A DNA stretch of 23,409 nt from a virus: positions 1 to 23,409 of IMG/VR virus record IMGVR_UViG_3300037071_006337, one strand, 5' to 3'. Numbering within the stretch: position 1 is the first letter of the stretch; every line of letters begins with the position of its first letter. This document shows, one piece after another, positions 4,777 through 23,409 of this stretch. The notes under the pieces were generated by a model, which made no database searches, was not told where the DNA came from, and saw nothing but the letters and a program-made list of their open reading frames with translations. The translations under genes and the position numbers were made by a program.

Positions 4777-7700
4777 TGAATTTCCTTGTCTTCCTGCCCG
4801 GCTATCACGGCGGCCCCGGCGGCAGCGCCCATTGGAACGCCGGCCGGAATCTTCTTTGCCGGATCGCCTTCGAGCAGCTTCTTGGCCAACCCGTCGTTGA
4901 GCCTGACGCCCCAAACCTTGACCTTCTGCGAACTGCCTGGCGCGATCGGCATCTCGACCAGCTCGACCTTAGCGCCGTAGCGCTTCAGGAATTTCTCCAT
5001 CTCGTTCTTGACTTTCTTGTTGTAATCGTGAAACGAGCCCGGGTCATACGTAACTTTCTCAGTAAGGTCCATGCTCACCTGGTGCGGCTGCGGCGCGGGC
5101 ATTAGCTCGTTCATAGTTTCGCCGTAGGCGCGCGCCCGCTCTATCATACTGCGCAAATCCTTGGCATGCGCCTCGGGCAGCTTGTCGGCCAGCTCTTCGA
5201 CTTCGGCCATCGTCAAGATTTCGCCGGTGTTTGTGCGCCGCCCGTATTTATCATAAGTATCCAGGCGTATCTCGTCGCGGCCATGCTGATCAGGCGTAAA
5301 CCGCACATCGCCTTCAAGATACTTGGGCCCTTCGCTAGGATAGCGCATCTGCGCCACCTCGGTCGTCGTCCAGCCAAACCAGTCTTTGCCCGAGCGCGCG
5401 GCGTCGAACAGCTCGGCCTTGAAGATATTGGTTTGTGCGCTATGCGCAAAGATCTGCTCGGGCAGCGCCTGGAATTTTGCAGGCATGCCGGGCACGGGCT
5501 TGCGCATCTTCTCCTCGCTCCAGATAGGGTCCTTGCGCATGGCTACGCGCTGCCCCGGCGTCGTATCCTCCCAGTTCTGCGGCAGACGCTTCAGCACGCG
5601 CCGGGCGGCCGAGGCGTCTTTAGCCGCGGCTTCCTTGGCCTGGCGATAAGTGGTCCATACAAAATCATCGTAAGTCGCTGCGCCCAGTATCGGCTCATCG
5701 ACCGCGGACGCCGTAGCCGCGCCGGCCAGCTTCTTCTTGCGCTCCAGGAAAAGCTGCTCCGCAGCATAGCGCGCCTTGACAAGATCGCTTTGCCCTTCAT
5801 CGATGAAGTGCATGGTCTCGCCGTTGAGCAAGCGGCGGAAGCTGGAGTAGGCGAAACCGACGATGCCCTTGGCTTTGCCGCCGGGATGAATAGAAGGGCC
5901 GGCAATCTGCAAGCCTTCAGGGTGAATATACGTGTGCGCCTGATGGCCGAGCGGATCGACGCCGTTGCGGACCTGCCCGCCGGGTTCGAAATTGCCGAGC
6001 AGCGTCGAGTAACGTATATCTTGATAGTCGAATTGGAAATGCGGCAATACGCGATTAAGGTCCTCAGGCGTGACCACTGCGCCCATATTGATGGCCATTT
6101 TGTCTAGCTCCTCCCAGATATTCATTATGATATCGCGATCTGCGGTCAAAACTTGCTGCCATTTGGCGCGCGCCTGATCAGTGCGCGCGCGCTCCAGCAT
6201 GCGCGTATGCTTTATCTCTTCTTCCATCCAGGACATGAGGTCCCTCAGCATGCCCTTCGCCTCGTATGCGCTTGCCCCGGTAATCATATGCTCGATGCCA
6301 TGAATACCCGGCGGGACCTGGCCGTCGGAAATAGCCGCGCGTCTTGCCTCATACGCTACTTTTTCCATGTGACGCCCAACGGCTATCTCGCCCTCGATAT
6401 CTCCCCCAGTTTCGATAAGGTAATTGAGCTCGCTGCGCAGGCGCTGGTATTCGGGATTGCTGTTAAGCAGGTGCGTCTGCCATGCCACGGTTTGGCGCAC
6501 CTGCGGTATAAGCGGATAGCGCTGGATCTTGACCAGGTTGTCGTCTATGAAATCCAGCACTTCTTCTTTCTTCATCCGGCGCGCGGCGTTCTCCGGGCTC
6601 TTTAGAAATTCCTCTAGACCCATCGCGGCTATCTCGTCTTCGCGCACGTCCTGCTTGCCCTTGCGAAAGCCGGGTTTGTCGCCTTTGCCCATTACAACAT
6701 TTGCCCATTCCGTGCCGGTCATGACGCCCATCGGAGAATTGGCAACATGGTATTGCACGGGAGAGTAATAACCCGTAGACGGATCAATGAACACGCGGCT
6801 ATTAGGATCACGAGGCAGCGGCGGCGGGTTAACGATCGGCGGCAACGGCGGCTCGGCAGGCTGCGCCGGCCGGGCGGACTGAACTTGGGGGTCGAAGTCA
6901 GGTATGCCGCCCCAGGCCTGGCCATGCGGACCGGCAATTTGCCCTGGCAACATATCAAATGCGTCCAGCACGGCTAAACCGCTATCTGTCTCTTGCAAGT
7001 ATGCGCGCGTCTCCGGCGACAGCGCGCCGTCGCCCATCTCGGTGCGGACTCGGCTTTCCAAGGTTTCGCCGTAATAAGGATTTTCGTAAATCCATGTATC
7101 GATCAAGCTGCTAAGCGTTGGGCCGTCCTGCAGCGGCTCGCCTAGCTGGTTACCAGTAGCCGCGCGGTCGCGCCGGATCAGGTCTGCGGCCTGTTCGCGC
7201 GTAATACCATGCATATCCATAGTAGCCTGAACCTCGGCTTCATGGAACCGCGCCCGCGTCTCGAGGTCGGCGCGGTCTTGCCCTTGCTGCACAAGCGCGC
7301 GATCCTGCGCCAAGACCGGATCGCCTTCCTCGAATGGCCGCTGTCGTAAAAATTCCTCTGATTCCGGCGTAAGCTGCCTCGCTTCTATATCTTGCTGGAC
7401 AGCGCGCTCGGCTGGCGTCGGCATGCGCTCGACAGTCTGCACGGCGCCTTCACCGGCTGGAATATACTCGCCCTCTATAGGACGCGGATTGACGTTGACC
7501 GAAGGCAGGTTTGGCAAGTCATTCCGCCTGAACCCCTTGATGCCGCGCGCAATGGCTTGGCCGCCTTTGAGCAGCGCAGCCATGACTTCAGGCGCGGCCG
7601 CACTGCCGACCGCGTATCCCGCCCCGCCCTCGACCGCGCTTGCGGCCAGCTCGGCGCCCGTTGGATCGCGTCCGCTCACCGATGCCTTGGCCGTTGCGCC

Positions 7701-8789
7701 CGCCGCGCCGACCGGCGCGCCGACCGCCGCGCCCAGCGCCATGCGCTTGAAGAAGTCCATCGCAGCCGCGCGCCCTGCCGACACCATGGTTAGCTTGCCG
7801 ACGCCCATGCCGACGTAGTTCGTGGGATCAAGGATCACGCGCCTGGCATTAGACAGCTGGCCAAGGAACGACCGCTCTATATTGGTCTGGCTCCAGGACT
7901 CGAGCGCCTGGGCATACGCCTGATGTATCTCGGTCGGCGCATTCTTGGCCTTTAGCATAATCATAGGCCATGTCCAGATATTGAGGTCGAGGTCGCGCAT
8001 ATGCTCGGCCAGCCAGCGCGCCGCGGCGGCGTCAGTGTCATTAAACTCCATGCCAGTATAATGCTTGTGCAGCGTCTTGCCTAGTTTTTGAAACTGCGGA
8101 TCGGCCATGCGCACCGTAAAATCCATGCTTTGCGGCGAGGGCGGGTATAGGCCGACTAGGCCTGCGCCGGCGCGGTCCGTGGCGCCCAGCGCCCCCCACT
8201 TCTGCATGCTCTGGTTGAACTGGTCCACGATACTGTATTGGCGCGCAGAATCCGTGCCTGCGCGCCAGGCTGCGCGCTTCTGGCTTTCGCGCCAGTGCGG
8301 ATGCGCGGCAGAAAAGTCGGTATAAGTCTTATGGCTGTTCTGGAAAGCGCCGGCCACCGCAGATAGCCCGACGACATCCTGGTCAGGGCGCTCGCCGCCC
8401 ATACGGGTATACGAGCCCGTAAGCTGGCCAACGCCATAAGCCGCATTGCCCGCGTAGTCCTTGAGCACGACGCTCTTGACCGGGGCGCCTGTCGCCAGGT
8501 CGTGGCCCGCTACATTCTGCGAGTTTGGCGTAAAGTAACGATTAGGAAGCTCGCCGGTATCAAGGTTAGTGCCGGCGCAATATGCCCCAACGTAGTTGTA
8601 GTCCTGCTTGCCCCAATTAACCTTGGCCGGATCGCTTACTTTTTGCCAGGACTTCTGCGCCTCGGCCGTTTGCGCCTCGGTCTTCACCGCCTCCAGTGAG
8701 GCGCGCTCTTCGGCCAGCGCCTGACTACCCGGCGTCGACTCCTCCAGAAGCTGATGGCGCGCATGGGTAAACCGCTCCTCAGTATTCAT
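4773..8789 (-). CDS. Giant polyvalent internal virion protein (1338 aa)
   Basis: The largest gene in the window, in the position of T7 gp16. Its C-terminal 350 residues carry, in order, a degenerate form of a module seen in large polyvalent phage proteins: MHFIDEGQSD (residues 993-1002, usually an E-x-QSDW box), GWTTTEVAQMRY (about 1139-1150, usually a WTTG-x-Q-x-x-RY box), SFHDYNKKVKNEMEKFLKRY (about 1252-1271, usually FYDK-x-LP) and KVWGVRLNDGLAKKLLEG (about 1291-1308). Residues about 349-405 are Ala/Gly-rich with two weakly hydrophobic stretches, possibly a membrane-inserting segment. Residues about 600-660 are Pro-rich, a likely linker. I saw no transglycosylase Glu motif such as T7 gp16 has. 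The start (ATG 8789) overlaps the upstream stop as ATGA, with AGGGA upstream. Parts of the gene are AT-richer than its neighbours. It is probably packed in the head and ejected with the DNA. Confidence 0.85.
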   Translation of the reverse strand: MNTEERFTHARHQLLEESTPGSQALAEERASLEAVKTEAQTAEAQKSWQKVSDPAKVNWGKQDYNYVGAYCAGTNLDTGELPNRYFTPNSQNVAGHDLATGAPVKSVVLKDYAGNAAYGVGQLTGSYTRMGGERPDQDVVGLSAVAGAFQNSHKTYTDFSAAHPHWRESQKRAAWRAGTDSARQYSIVDQFNQSMQKWGALGATDRAGAGLVGLYPPSPQSMDFTVRMADPQFQKLGKTLHKHYTGMEFNDTDAAAARWLAEHMRDLDLNIWTWPMIMLKAKNAPTEIHQAYAQALESWSQTNIERSFLGQLSNARRVILDPTNYVGMGVGKLTMVSAGRAAAMDFFKRMALGAAVGAPVGAAGATAKASVSGRDPTGAELAASAVEGGAGYAVGSAAAPEVMAALLKGGQAIARGIKGFRRNDLPNLPSVNVNPRPIEGEYIPAGEGAVQTVERMPTPAERAVQQDIEARQLTPESEEFLRQRPFEEGDPVLAQDRALVQQGQDRADLETRARFHEAEVQATMDMHGITREQAADLIRRDRAATGNQLGEPLQDGPTLSSLIDTWIYENPYYGETLESRVRTEMGDGALSPETRAYLQETDSGLAVLDAFDMLPGQIAGPHGQAWGGIPDFDPQVQSARPAQPAEPPLPPIVNPPPLPRDPNSRVFIDPSTGYYSPVQYHVANSPMGVMTGTEWANVVMGKGDKPGFRKGKQDVREDEIAAMGLEEFLKSPENAARRMKKEEVLDFIDDNLVKIQRYPLIPQVRQTVAWQTHLLNSNPEYQRLRSELNYLIETGGDIEGEIAVGRHMEKVAYEARRAAISDGQVPPGIHGIEHMITGASAYEAKGMLRDLMSWMEEEIKHTRMLERARTDQARAKWQQVLTADRDIIMNIWEELDKMAINMGAVVTPEDLNRVLPHFQFDYQDIRYSTLLGNFEPGGQVRNGVDPLGHQAHTYIHPEGLQIAGPSIHPGGKAKGIVGFAYSSFRRLLNGETMHFIDEGQSDLVKARYAAEQLFLERKKKLAGAATASAVDEPILGAATYDDFVWTTYRQAKEAAAKDASAARRVLKRLPQNWEDTTPGQRVAMRKDPIWSEEKMRKPVPGMPAKFQALPEQIFAHSAQTNIFKAELFDAARSGKDWFGWTTTEVAQMRYPSEGPKYLEGDVRFTPDQHGRDEIRLDTYDKYGRRTNTGEILTMAEVEELADKLPEAHAKDLRSMIERARAYGETMNELMPAPQPHQVSMDLTEKVTYDPGSFHDYNKKVKNEMEKFLKRYGAKVELVEMPIAPGSSQKVKVWGVRLNDGLAKKLLEGDPAKKIPAGVPMGAAAGAAVIAGQEDKEIQ

Positions 8790-22183: not shown

Positions 22184-22224
22184 ATCCCCGCCACGCGCGC
22201 GCGCGCGGGTCACATAAGTGCCGG

Positions 22225-22311
22225 GTTACTTCCCAGGTACTGGAGAGTTACCTGTTACTTCCCAGGTACTGGAGAGTTACCTGTTACTTCCCAGGTACTG
22301 GAGAGTTACCT
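22225..22311. repeat. Three exact 29-bp tandem repeats
   Basis: The 29-base unit beginning gttacttcccaggtactg and ending gagagttacct occurs three times head to tail without a mismatch (22,225-22,253; 22,254-22,282; 22,283-22,311), followed by a decayed fourth start (gtttcc). Each unit contains a small inverted repeat (AGGTA/TACCT) and a near-symmetric core CCAGGTACTGG. The sequence cgggaagtag just after the array can pair with the gttacttccc start of a unit. The period is not a multiple of three and there are no spacers, so it is neither coding nor CRISPR. It lies about 80 bp upstream of the terminase genes. Candidate roles are a packaging site, iterons, or an operator array. Confidence 0.95.
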
Positions 22312-22342
22312 GTTTCCTGTCGGGAAGTAGCATAAACCCGGT

Positions 22343-22360
22343 AAAAGGGGCGGTGCGCCC
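22343..22360 (-). terminator. Weak terminator or attenuator in the late leader
   Basis: On the minus strand GGGCG-cac-CGCCC (22,360-22,348) is followed by C and TTTT, so RNA polymerase entering from the divergent promoter region toward the terminase genes would meet a short GC-rich hairpin with a brief U tract. A larger alternative stem with the nearby GGGGGCG is also possible. It is a moderate candidate only. Confidence 0.35.
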
Positions 22361-22390
22361 TTGCGCGCCCCCACCTACCCCCTCGCGCGC

Positions 22391-22461
22391 CTGGACGCGG
22401 AAGGAGCGCGCCCGCGCGTGGGTGCGAGTCACTCCGCGCGCGTCCAGTCACTCCGCACGCG
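22391..22461. repeat. 9-bp inverted repeat and 16-base direct repeat pair
   Basis: CTGGACGCG (22,391-22,399) and CGCGTCCAG (22,439-22,447) are perfect inverted repeats 39 bases apart. Overlapping the right arm, agtcactccgcgcgcg (22,427-22,442) is repeated with one mismatch as agtcactccgcacgcg (22,446-22,461), a 19-base period. These could be binding sites for a phage replication or regulatory protein; nothing shows which. Confidence 0.7.
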
Positions 22462-22551
22462 CGCCACGCACAGTATCCCGCATCTAACTTGATGATTTTT
22501 ATTCTAATTTATAGTACTGTACGAATGTACACCTGAAGTTCGCACGCGAAC

Positions 22552-22631
22552 CGTATAGCTATGTCTATAGTCTTAGTAGTCTAAGAATATAATCAAATCA
22601 ATAGACTACTAAGACTACATAAATATATACT
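22552..22631. promoter_or_regulatory. Perfect 16-bp inverted repeat with flanking promoter-like boxes
   Basis: TAGTCTTAGTAGTCTA (22,568-22,583) and its exact reverse complement (22,602-22,617) surround an 18-base AT-rich centre. Rightward, TAGACT at the inner end of the right arm and TATACT at 22,626-22,631, 18 bases further on, resemble -35 and -10 boxes. Leftward, TATACG on the minus strand (22,557-22,552) lies at nearly the mirror-image distance outside the left arm. This suggests an operator controlling divergent promoters, one toward the late genes and one toward the 93-aa gene. The inverted repeat is certain; the promoter reading is inferred. Confidence 0.5.
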
Positions 22632-22645
22632 TTAACTGTAGGCCA

Positions 22646-22657
22646 ATGCCATGGCAT
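22646..22657. repeat. 12-bp perfect palindrome
   Basis: ATGCCATGGCAT is self-complementary over 12 bases. It lies between the promoter-like TATACT box and the alternating CG tract and could be a dimeric protein site; no function can be shown. Confidence 0.6.
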
Positions 22658-22747
22658 ACGCGCGCGGGCGCGCGGGCGCGCGGCCAGGCGCGCGCGGGTG
22701 CGTGCGCGTAGCGCGTGCGCGCATCCGCGTGCGCGTACGCGCGCGCG
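22658..22747. repeat. CG/TG alternating, Z-DNA-prone tract
   Basis: About 90 bases consist almost only of CG, GC, TG and GT steps. The stretch 22,726-22,747 is 22 bases of strictly alternating pyrimidine-purine, the type of sequence that adopts left-handed DNA under negative supercoiling. It separates the AT-rich inverted-repeat region from the palindrome cluster. It contains no convincing open frame on either strand. Confidence 0.7.
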
Positions 22748-22749
22748 AA

Positions 22750-22905
22750 TGCTGTAAATTTATACAGCACTAACTTGAAATGCGCGCTAAGCGCTTGTTT
22801 TCAAATTAGAAAAAAATAATTTGAACTTTTGCAACTGCGCGCTGTCTAATGTTCTGCAAGCGCAATTTTTTCGCAGCTTGCAAGCATGCGCGCTTAGCGC
22901 ATGCT
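22750..22905. repeat. Cluster of four inverted repeats
   Basis: Four hairpin-capable repeats follow each other: TGCTGTA/TACAGCA (22,750-22,769, loop 6); TTCAAATTA/TAATTTGAA (22,800-22,825, loop gaaaaaaa); a 10-bp palindrome GCTTGCAAGC (22,876-22,885); and AGCATGCGC/GCGCATGCT (22,883-22,905, loop 5). They lie in the presumed leader of the rightward 93-aa gene. No tRNA-like cloverleaf or conserved small RNA is recognisable. They may be protein-binding sites, an origin, or RNA structure. Confidence 0.75.
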
Positions 22906-22979
22906 GCGTAAGACGCGCTGAGCACATATAGCGCGCAGCAAACGCTCTTTCACAATATGGAATCTACCTTGAATGCATT

Positions 22980-23056
22980 GCGCTAGCAATTGCTAGCGCG
23001 CTGCATGCTGCATATGCGCATAGCGTGCGCAGCATGCAGCGCAATAATGCGCTGCA
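22980..23056 (+). promoter_or_regulatory. Palindrome and mutually exclusive hairpins before a ribosome-binding site
   Basis: A perfect 20-bp palindrome GCGCTAGCAATTGCTAGCGC (22,980-22,999) leads into a 14-bp perfect stem, GCGCTGCATGCTGC (22,998-23,011) with GCAGCATGCAGCGC (23,029-23,042). The right arm of that stem also forms an 8-bp stem, TGCAGCGC (23,035-23,042) with GCGCTGCA (23,049-23,056), so the two hairpins exclude each other. The second stem ends seven bases before the Shine-Dalgarno AGGAG of the 93-aa gene. This layout is typical of a switch or attenuation element, though the ligand or signal, if any, is unknown. The pairing is seen directly; the regulation is inferred. Confidence 0.55.
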
Positions 23057-23074
23057 CAATCAAGGAGATATCAA

Positions 23075-23356
23075 ATGCTTAACATTGACAGCAATGAATT
23101 TTCTTCAATGATTTGCTCGCCTGCTATGAGCGCTGTAGAAGTCAGCAGCGCAGTCACAGCGCAGCCTAAGAAGAGCGCAAGCAAGAAAGCGAAGAAAAGC
23201 AAGAGCATCGCTGACACTATTAGAGAAGGCATCCGCGCTGAAATGAGCAATGAAGCAATACTCAAATCAGTGCACAAAAAGCACAAAAGCTGCAATACAA
23301 CAATGGCTTGCGTGTATTGGTATCAGAGCCGCTTCAACCGCGGTTTAGAGAAGTAG
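23075..23356 (+). CDS. Small basic phage protein (93 aa), unknown
   Basis: The only convincing plus-strand gene. The start at ATG 23075 has a strong AGGAG seven bases upstream. The 93-aa product has a Lys/Ser-rich stretch at 32-45 (PKKSASKKAKKSKS) and then a pattern seen in many small phage proteins: IADTIREGIRAEMSNEAILK, then NTTMACVYWYQSRFNRG near the end (conserved 'T-x-M-A-x-V-x-W-Y' box). Codon use is AT-richer than in the late genes. It is divergent from the late operon and preceded by a long structured leader, so it is probably the first gene of an early or middle unit. DNA or RNA binding is suggested by the basic charge but not demonstrated. Confidence 0.85.
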   Translation: MLNIDSNEFSSMICSPAMSAVEVSSAVTAQPKKSASKKAKKSKSIADTIREGIRAEMSNEAILKSVHKKHKSCNTTMACVYWYQSRFNRGLEK

Positions 23357-23359
23357 CAG

Positions 23360-23390
23360 CGTATAGCAGCCTCCAACAGGCTGCTATGCG
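23360..23390 (+). other. 13-bp stem-loop after the 93-aa gene
   Basis: Four bases after the TAG stop, GTATAGCAGCCT-ccaac-AGGCTGCTATGC can form a stem of about 13 pairs with one G-U pair. It is followed only by gatgcgatttc, without a proper T run, so it is more likely an mRNA-stabilising or processing stem than an efficient terminator. The remaining bases to 23,409 hold no gene that can be supported. Confidence 0.6.
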
Positions 23391-23409
23391 ATGCGATTTC
23401 ATGGAGTCC

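Follow-up and report, generated by a model that had tools for sequence, protein, structure and literature searches.

The DNA analysed is IMG/VR record IMGVR_UViG_3300037071_006337, a viral sequence of 23,409 nt, all of which (positions 1–23,409) is referred to as the window. Structural genes identified by PHROGs as terminase, portal/head-tail adaptor and major head protein run leftward, followed by a long intergenic stretch and then a single rightward gene, P0001 (23,075–23,356, + strand; 93 amino acids, residues 44–88 matching phrog_17767), which is gene 1 of a rightward operon. Two other IMG/VR contigs, G001 and G002, are 100% identical to the window over 7,378 and 10,189 shared bases, with mismatch confined to the last three window bases. 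Two of the three bases at 23,407–23,409 are unlike both contigs, probably a contig-end artefact. The identical contigs carry the operon onward and provide context, but no sequence variation; positions beyond the window are given on L006 (window position = L006 position + 18,074). A promoter-like element, TTGAAC-18-TCTAAT (22,821–22,850, + strand), recognized by consensus match only, could start a transcript through the gene 1 leader. No tRNA genes were found in a search for them.

Several other features were noted in the divergent intergenic region. Upstream of the leftward terminase gene lies a perfect 29-bp tandem repeat of 3.1 copies (22,225–22,314), and a long AT-rich dyad, AGTCTTAGTAGTCTA ... 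TAGACTACTAAGACT, spans 22,553–22,630. An alternating CG-rich tract at 22,655–22,755 contains the most stable 75-nt window of G001 (−64.4 kcal/mol), with the fold of the + strand 12.7 kcal/mol more stable than that of the complement. The dyad TTCAAATTA-N8-TAATTTGAA (22,800–22,825), possibly an operator, overlaps the −35-like TTGAAC of the promoter-like site.

The leader of gene 1 (leader 1, + strand) contains the word GCGCTGCA at 22,998–23,005 and again at 23,049–23,056, and either copy can pair with TGCAGCGC at 23,035–23,042, in agreement with a preliminary description of the locus. The 14-bp stem proposed there, 22,998–23,011 with 23,029–23,042, has 100% complementarity, and the perfect 20-bp palindrome GCGCTAGCAATTGCTAGCGC (22,980–22,999) does overlap its upstream arm. 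The stem close to the Shine-Dalgarno (SD) sequence is likewise present; however, it is not 8 bp long and seven bases from the SD, as described, but 9 bp long (23,035–23,043/23,048–23,056, loop ATAA), ending five bases before the AAGGAG at 23,062. In the predicted conformer that contains this SD-proximal stem, three hairpins stand back to back in 22,973–23,056: hairpin I (22,973–23,006), an imperfect 34-nt hairpin into which the palindrome extends; hairpin II (23,007–23,033), whose stem can lengthen into the 14-bp stem; and hairpin III (23,035–23,056), which is the 9-bp stem. A single base is left unpaired between II and III.

A third helix, missed in the preliminary description, is predicted to close both conformers. 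In this helix, here called the clamp, GAATCTACCTTGA at 22,960–22,972 pairs with the SD region TCAAGGAGATATC at 23,060–23,072, so covering the entire AAGGAG (23,062–23,067). The clamp comprises 6 + 4 + 2 bp, is worth about 10 kcal/mol, and has pair probabilities of 0.92–1.0 across its six CCTTGA:TCAAGG pairs. Mean SD accessibility is 0.003 with the clamp in either conformer; with the clamp strand held unpaired it is 0.68 or 0.69, irrespective of the inner pairing. Accessibility this low is seldom reached when the upstream sequence is shuffled: values of ≤ 0.01 and ≤ 0.05 arose in 0 and 4 of 300 shuffles of 22,860–22,973, in 9 and 23 of 300 when only 22,940–22,973 was shuffled, and in none of 300 at either threshold when the whole leader was shuffled. 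Predicted accessibility rises to 0.65–0.76 for transcripts that end at 23,090 and start at 22,974 or later. When coding sequence to 23,140 is included, the SD remains largely paired in the absence of the clamp strand as well (0.08–0.09).

Repeated words and total fold behave differently against chance. Markov surrogates of order 1, 2 and 3 reproduce the word triple in 26, 23 and 40 of 200 cases, respectively, when made from the whole window, and in 13, 62 and 74 of 1000 when made from 22,600–23,409; by itself the three-word pattern is weak against chance and not rare. The total fold of leader 1, unlike the word triple, is rare. None of 200 dinucleotide shuffles of 22,960–23,100 is as stable (z = −5.9), and of 300 local Markov surrogates for each order, those matching the whole fold number 0 (order 1), 1 (order 2) and 2 (order 3).

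Each of the next three genes of the operon, read on L006, is preceded by strong hairpins and then by TTCAAGGAGATA, and (T)TCAAGGAGATA is common to all four leaders. Strong hairpins thus precede (T)TCAAGGAGATA and a start codon in four of four genes, an arrangement that we define as a pre-RBS hairpin cassette. The first hairpin of leader 2 (12 bp, 23,361–23,389, + strand), between genes 1 and 2, falls within the window and the remainder of that leader outside it (L006 5316–5372). Segments ending just before the SD form two gapless hairpins in leaders 2–4 and three in leader 1. In every one of the four leaders the predicted folding energy of the 75 nt preceding the SD is about −41 kcal/mol (ranks 12–15 of 945 windows), with z-scores against dinucleotide shuffles of only −2.2 in leader 1 and of −7.2, −4.2 and −6.4 in leaders 2, 3 and 4. 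The sense strand folds better than its complement in all four, by 3.4–10.7 kcal/mol against a background standard deviation of the difference of 5.15, and G-U pairs are present in three. Seven of the 13 perfect hairpins with stems of at least 8 bp in G001 (23,694 bases) are clustered within 6775–8139.

The leaders also differ. SD accessibility is 0.54–0.68 in leaders 2–4; the closed SD is therefore special to leader 1. Across leaders 2, 3 and 4, all 21 cells of a 7-bp stem before the SD are paired, and two of its base pairs show double changes. As the comparison involves three sequences from which the structure itself was taken, and 59 of 500 shuffles of the letters do as well, it offers modest evidence that pairing has been kept among these leaders. 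When leader 3 is folded from its stop codon, another pairing displaces the small hairpin. The 15-mer GCAGCATGCAGCGCA at 23,029–23,043 of leader 1 also occurs in leader 3 (L006 5584–5598), there as the 5′ arm of a different hairpin.

The preliminary description took the 14-bp and 8-bp stems as mutually exclusive and compared their layout with attenuators, thermosensors and riboswitch-like leaders; the corresponding explanation is a bistable switch in which the 14-bp and 8- or 9-bp stems would set translation of gene 1. Two competing pairings do exist, and they are close to equal in predicted energy: the best structure with the 14-bp stem has −65.6 kcal/mol and the best with the SD-proximal stem −65.3 kcal/mol, with pair probabilities of 0.38 and 0.59, respectively. 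The 14-bp conformer arises when stem II grows, taking TGCAGCGC from hairpin III as well as the outer bases of hairpin I. Because stepwise intermediates lie at −58.8 to −64.3 kcal/mol, the worst sampled being 6.8 kcal/mol above the best, we read the two pairings as branch migration rather than separate folds; in the model they would represent two positions of one migrating junction and no on/off switch. Equal SD access in both conformers speaks against switching. Predicted accessibility is 0.000 at 15°C, 0.004 by 42°C and 0.081 at 70°C, and the ratio of 14-bp to SD-proximal pairing shifts little over 15–70°C. These values give no support to a thermosensor or translation switch, access being the same in both pairings and almost nil throughout this range, with no melting predicted at biological temperatures. 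The lack of any terminator-like site in 22,200–23,409 speaks against a transcription attenuator, and that no Rfam family reached its gathering score speaks against a ligand-binding core of a known riboswitch class. A near-equal alternative is, moreover, found only in the first of the four leaders: the best structure that gives up 40% or more of the minimum-free-energy pairs is 0.9 kcal/mol worse in leader 1 and 4.2–12.6 kcal/mol worse in its siblings. We give a bistable switch little credence, despite the similar energies of its two states.

A diverged homologous leader was not found by way of gene 1, terminase, portal, gene 3 or a primase-like gene. The search with gene 1 retained 3 of 55 candidate stretches, two of them the identical contigs and the third a 30% match covering residues 44–87. 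Terminase gave 12 loci (best non-identical 45%), and portal gave 36, the best non-identical one (70%) on a 4.4-kb contig that reaches 506 bases upstream of portal; the gene 3 and primase-like gene searches returned only the two identical contigs, with no phage records for gene 3. Upstream regions were scanned at 16 of the 36 portal loci, and one locus, L087 (portal 38%), was examined further; it has a 9- or 10-bp hairpin shortly upstream of the SD in three of the four divergent AAGGAG genes found. CATCTTCAAGGAGATA occurs in 22 stretches of viral contigs, with hairpin-RBS sites solely in the two identical contigs. For TGCGCTGCA..AAGGAG there are at least 119 stretches in viral contigs, and among the 80 matches listed the upstream arm fits in G001 only. 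Of 69 matches to GATGNC..GNCATCTTCAAGGAG in genome contigs, which appear to be coding sequence, one has the full stem and a start codon in range.

Leaders of gene 1 relatives were also folded, 17 in all, from 16 of 32 records (many of the others being duplicate entries) together with L008; start choices look wrong for several of the set (L101, L295, L300 and L301). SD access is well below that of shuffles in phiH2 (1/200) and AAT-1 (7/200) and not so in the other 15, and SD sequestration as a common property of these leaders was rejected. In L008, which at 4983 also carries a small relative of gene 1, a stretch inside a DNA-polymerase-like gene (2268–2293) matches the first 26 bases of gene 1 (23,075–23,100) at 25 positions, a match that may be selected because L008 was found by a pattern from the same peptide.

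Hairpins before start codons were counted in five annotated phages whose portal or terminase is related, as perfect hairpins with stems of at least 7 bp ending 8–30 nt before the start codon. The census gave 14 hairpins in 240 CDS examined, compared with 3.5 expected. phiVC8 has five in 47 CDS (0.66 expected), K300 four in 56 (0.58 expected) and YeP5 two in 37; enrichment is slight in ct3Et533 (two in 44 CDS, 0.88 expected) and absent in BUCT555 (one in 56 CDS, 1.08 expected). No hairpin cluster like that of the operon was seen in the ends of BUCT555 or in most of ct3Et533. Hairpins of related sequence recur before the RBSs of p09, p27, p31 and p44 in phiVC8 (L097) and before the genes starting at 5821, 23,094 and 28,179 in K300 (L098); recurring arms within these two phages are GGTGTCGAC..GTCGACACC, GGGGTACTGA..TCAGTACCCC and GGGGCGTCCTGA..TCAGGACGCCCC. 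The phiVC8 record annotates such hairpins as terminators and inverted sequences, and the authors of the phiVC8 paper describe its intergenic regions as containing terminators and inverted sequences of 20 bp (PMC4802629).

The position of the hairpins before the RBS, the sense-strand excess, the pairing kept among siblings and the lack of terminator-like sites favour a role of the RNA between cistrons. We propose, at a probability of about one half, that this stretch forms the 5′ leader of gene 1, the first in the rightward operon, and acts as folded sense RNA for processing or insulation, of the RNase III or protective-hairpin kind, with the first copy also occluding its SD. The hairpins, which in each of the first four genes precede a near-identical RBS, would keep the cistrons apart, serving for RNase III-type processing and/or as protective structures, and every gene would thereby get its own translatable, stable mRNA end. 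In leader 1 the clamp is predicted to close the hairpins into a compact four-way junction as it covers the SD; translation of gene 1 would then need loss of the clamp, through cleavage of the leader or through a transcript whose start lies beyond the clamp strand. This scheme builds on the observed sequences, the computed folds, the repetition across four genes, the double changes that preserve pairing and the better folding of the sense strand; that the leader is transcribed and cleaved, and that stabilization and a control step follow, is inferred. As a candidate RNase III substrate, one conformer is predicted to pair over 14 bp, a mismatch and 5 bp. A more specific model, which we hold only tentatively and regard as unlikely in full, has the gene 1 leader as a compact four-way junction with migrating arms, whose SD may stay locked as long as no host or phage factor, such as RNase III cutting a hairpin, separates the clamp strands. 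RNA processing would then switch on gene 1, with genes 2–4 bearing the same hairpin-RBS cassette in clamp-free form.

Other explanations account for parts of these data. Control by transcript length, as for T4 gene e, would have the clamp shut the SD in long transcripts, transcripts starting downstream of 22,972 translated, and the hairpins as mere spacers. The predicted pairing of the SD with an upstream strand in the long transcript is of the gene e type, the contrast between 0.003 with the clamp and 0.65–0.76 for starts at or after 22,974 (3′ end 23,090) is in its favour, and parts of PMC3014915 document the mechanism for T4. Yet a scan limited to the sigma-70 consensus revealed no convincing promoter between the clamp strands, short transcripts that include coding sequence to 23,140 also keep the SD mostly paired, and the hairpins before genes 2–4 are left unexplained; we find this explanation doubtful. 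The palindromes might instead act as DNA, the divergent intergenic region then containing operators, cruciforms or an origin of replication. As DNA the 20-bp palindrome has no mismatch, and many more lie upstream (22,553–22,630, 22,721–22,752, 22,800–22,825 and 22,883–22,905), but the better folding of the sense strand in all four leaders, the G-U pairs in three, and a fixed hairpin position before the SD that holds within the operon too make a DNA-level role unlikely.

It is improbable that the leader is a functionless by-product of GCGC/TGCA-rich intergenic sequence: although the word triple appears in 6–7% of local order-2 and order-3 surrogates, the whole fold is matched by only 0–2 of 300, the four leaders are alike, and double changes preserve pairing. 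Partial transcription terminators between cistrons would agree with the annotation of similar hairpins in phiVC8, as given in passages of PMC4802629; with no terminator-like site in 22,200–23,409 and no T run in the hairpins of leader 1, we consider them highly improbable here. The anatomy of leader 1 is stronger than the preliminary description recognized, and what deserves further attention is the helix over the RBS and the recurrence of hairpins before four genes. A layout drawn as competing stems need not mean a switch: here the RBS is covered by a third pairing. If the proposal is correct, the first four genes of a phage operon are each preceded by a copy of one hairpin-plus-RBS cassette, and one of these copies has been remodelled into a lid on its RBS. 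A literature search, which reached few subscription papers, turned up no account of hairpin cassettes arrayed in tandem before RBSs.

The RNase III sites in the early mRNAs of T7/T3 and lambda are hairpins between early cistrons of a phage operon. The cassettes resemble them as inter-cistron hairpins of a phage operon and differ in adjoining a repeated RBS and in that cleavage is putative. Protective stem-loops are also found in ompA and papA, at the 5′ terminus of the mRNA; those described here similarly lie upstream of the RBS, but would be internal unless processed. Lambda cIII mRNA reportedly has alternative structures. Leader 1 is similar to cIII and adhE in its predicted occluded RBS beside what may be long double-stranded RNA and in its alternative pairings, whereas its alternatives cover the SD equally and cleavage is putative. 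Portions of PMC5371410 name the T7/T3 and lambda early mRNA sites, and describe RNase III as opening the occluded RBS of E. coli adhE and lambda cIII and as processing phage mRNA. PMC3014915 documents T4 genes whose SD is sequestered by an upstream strand: in the gene e, soc, 49 and I-TevI leaders, as predicted for leader 1, the upstream strand covers the SD and is absent from a shorter transcript. Leader 1 differs in having 87 nt of packed hairpins and no late promoter found between the strands, and its structure is a prediction only. The Vibrio phages phiVC8 and K300 have hairpins that stand singly and differ in sequence, some of them with terminator annotations; they share with this phage a related portal protein and perfect hairpins shortly before several start codons. 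If our proposal holds, the pre-start hairpins of several related phages, including some annotated as terminators, would be linked to mRNA processing or insulation.
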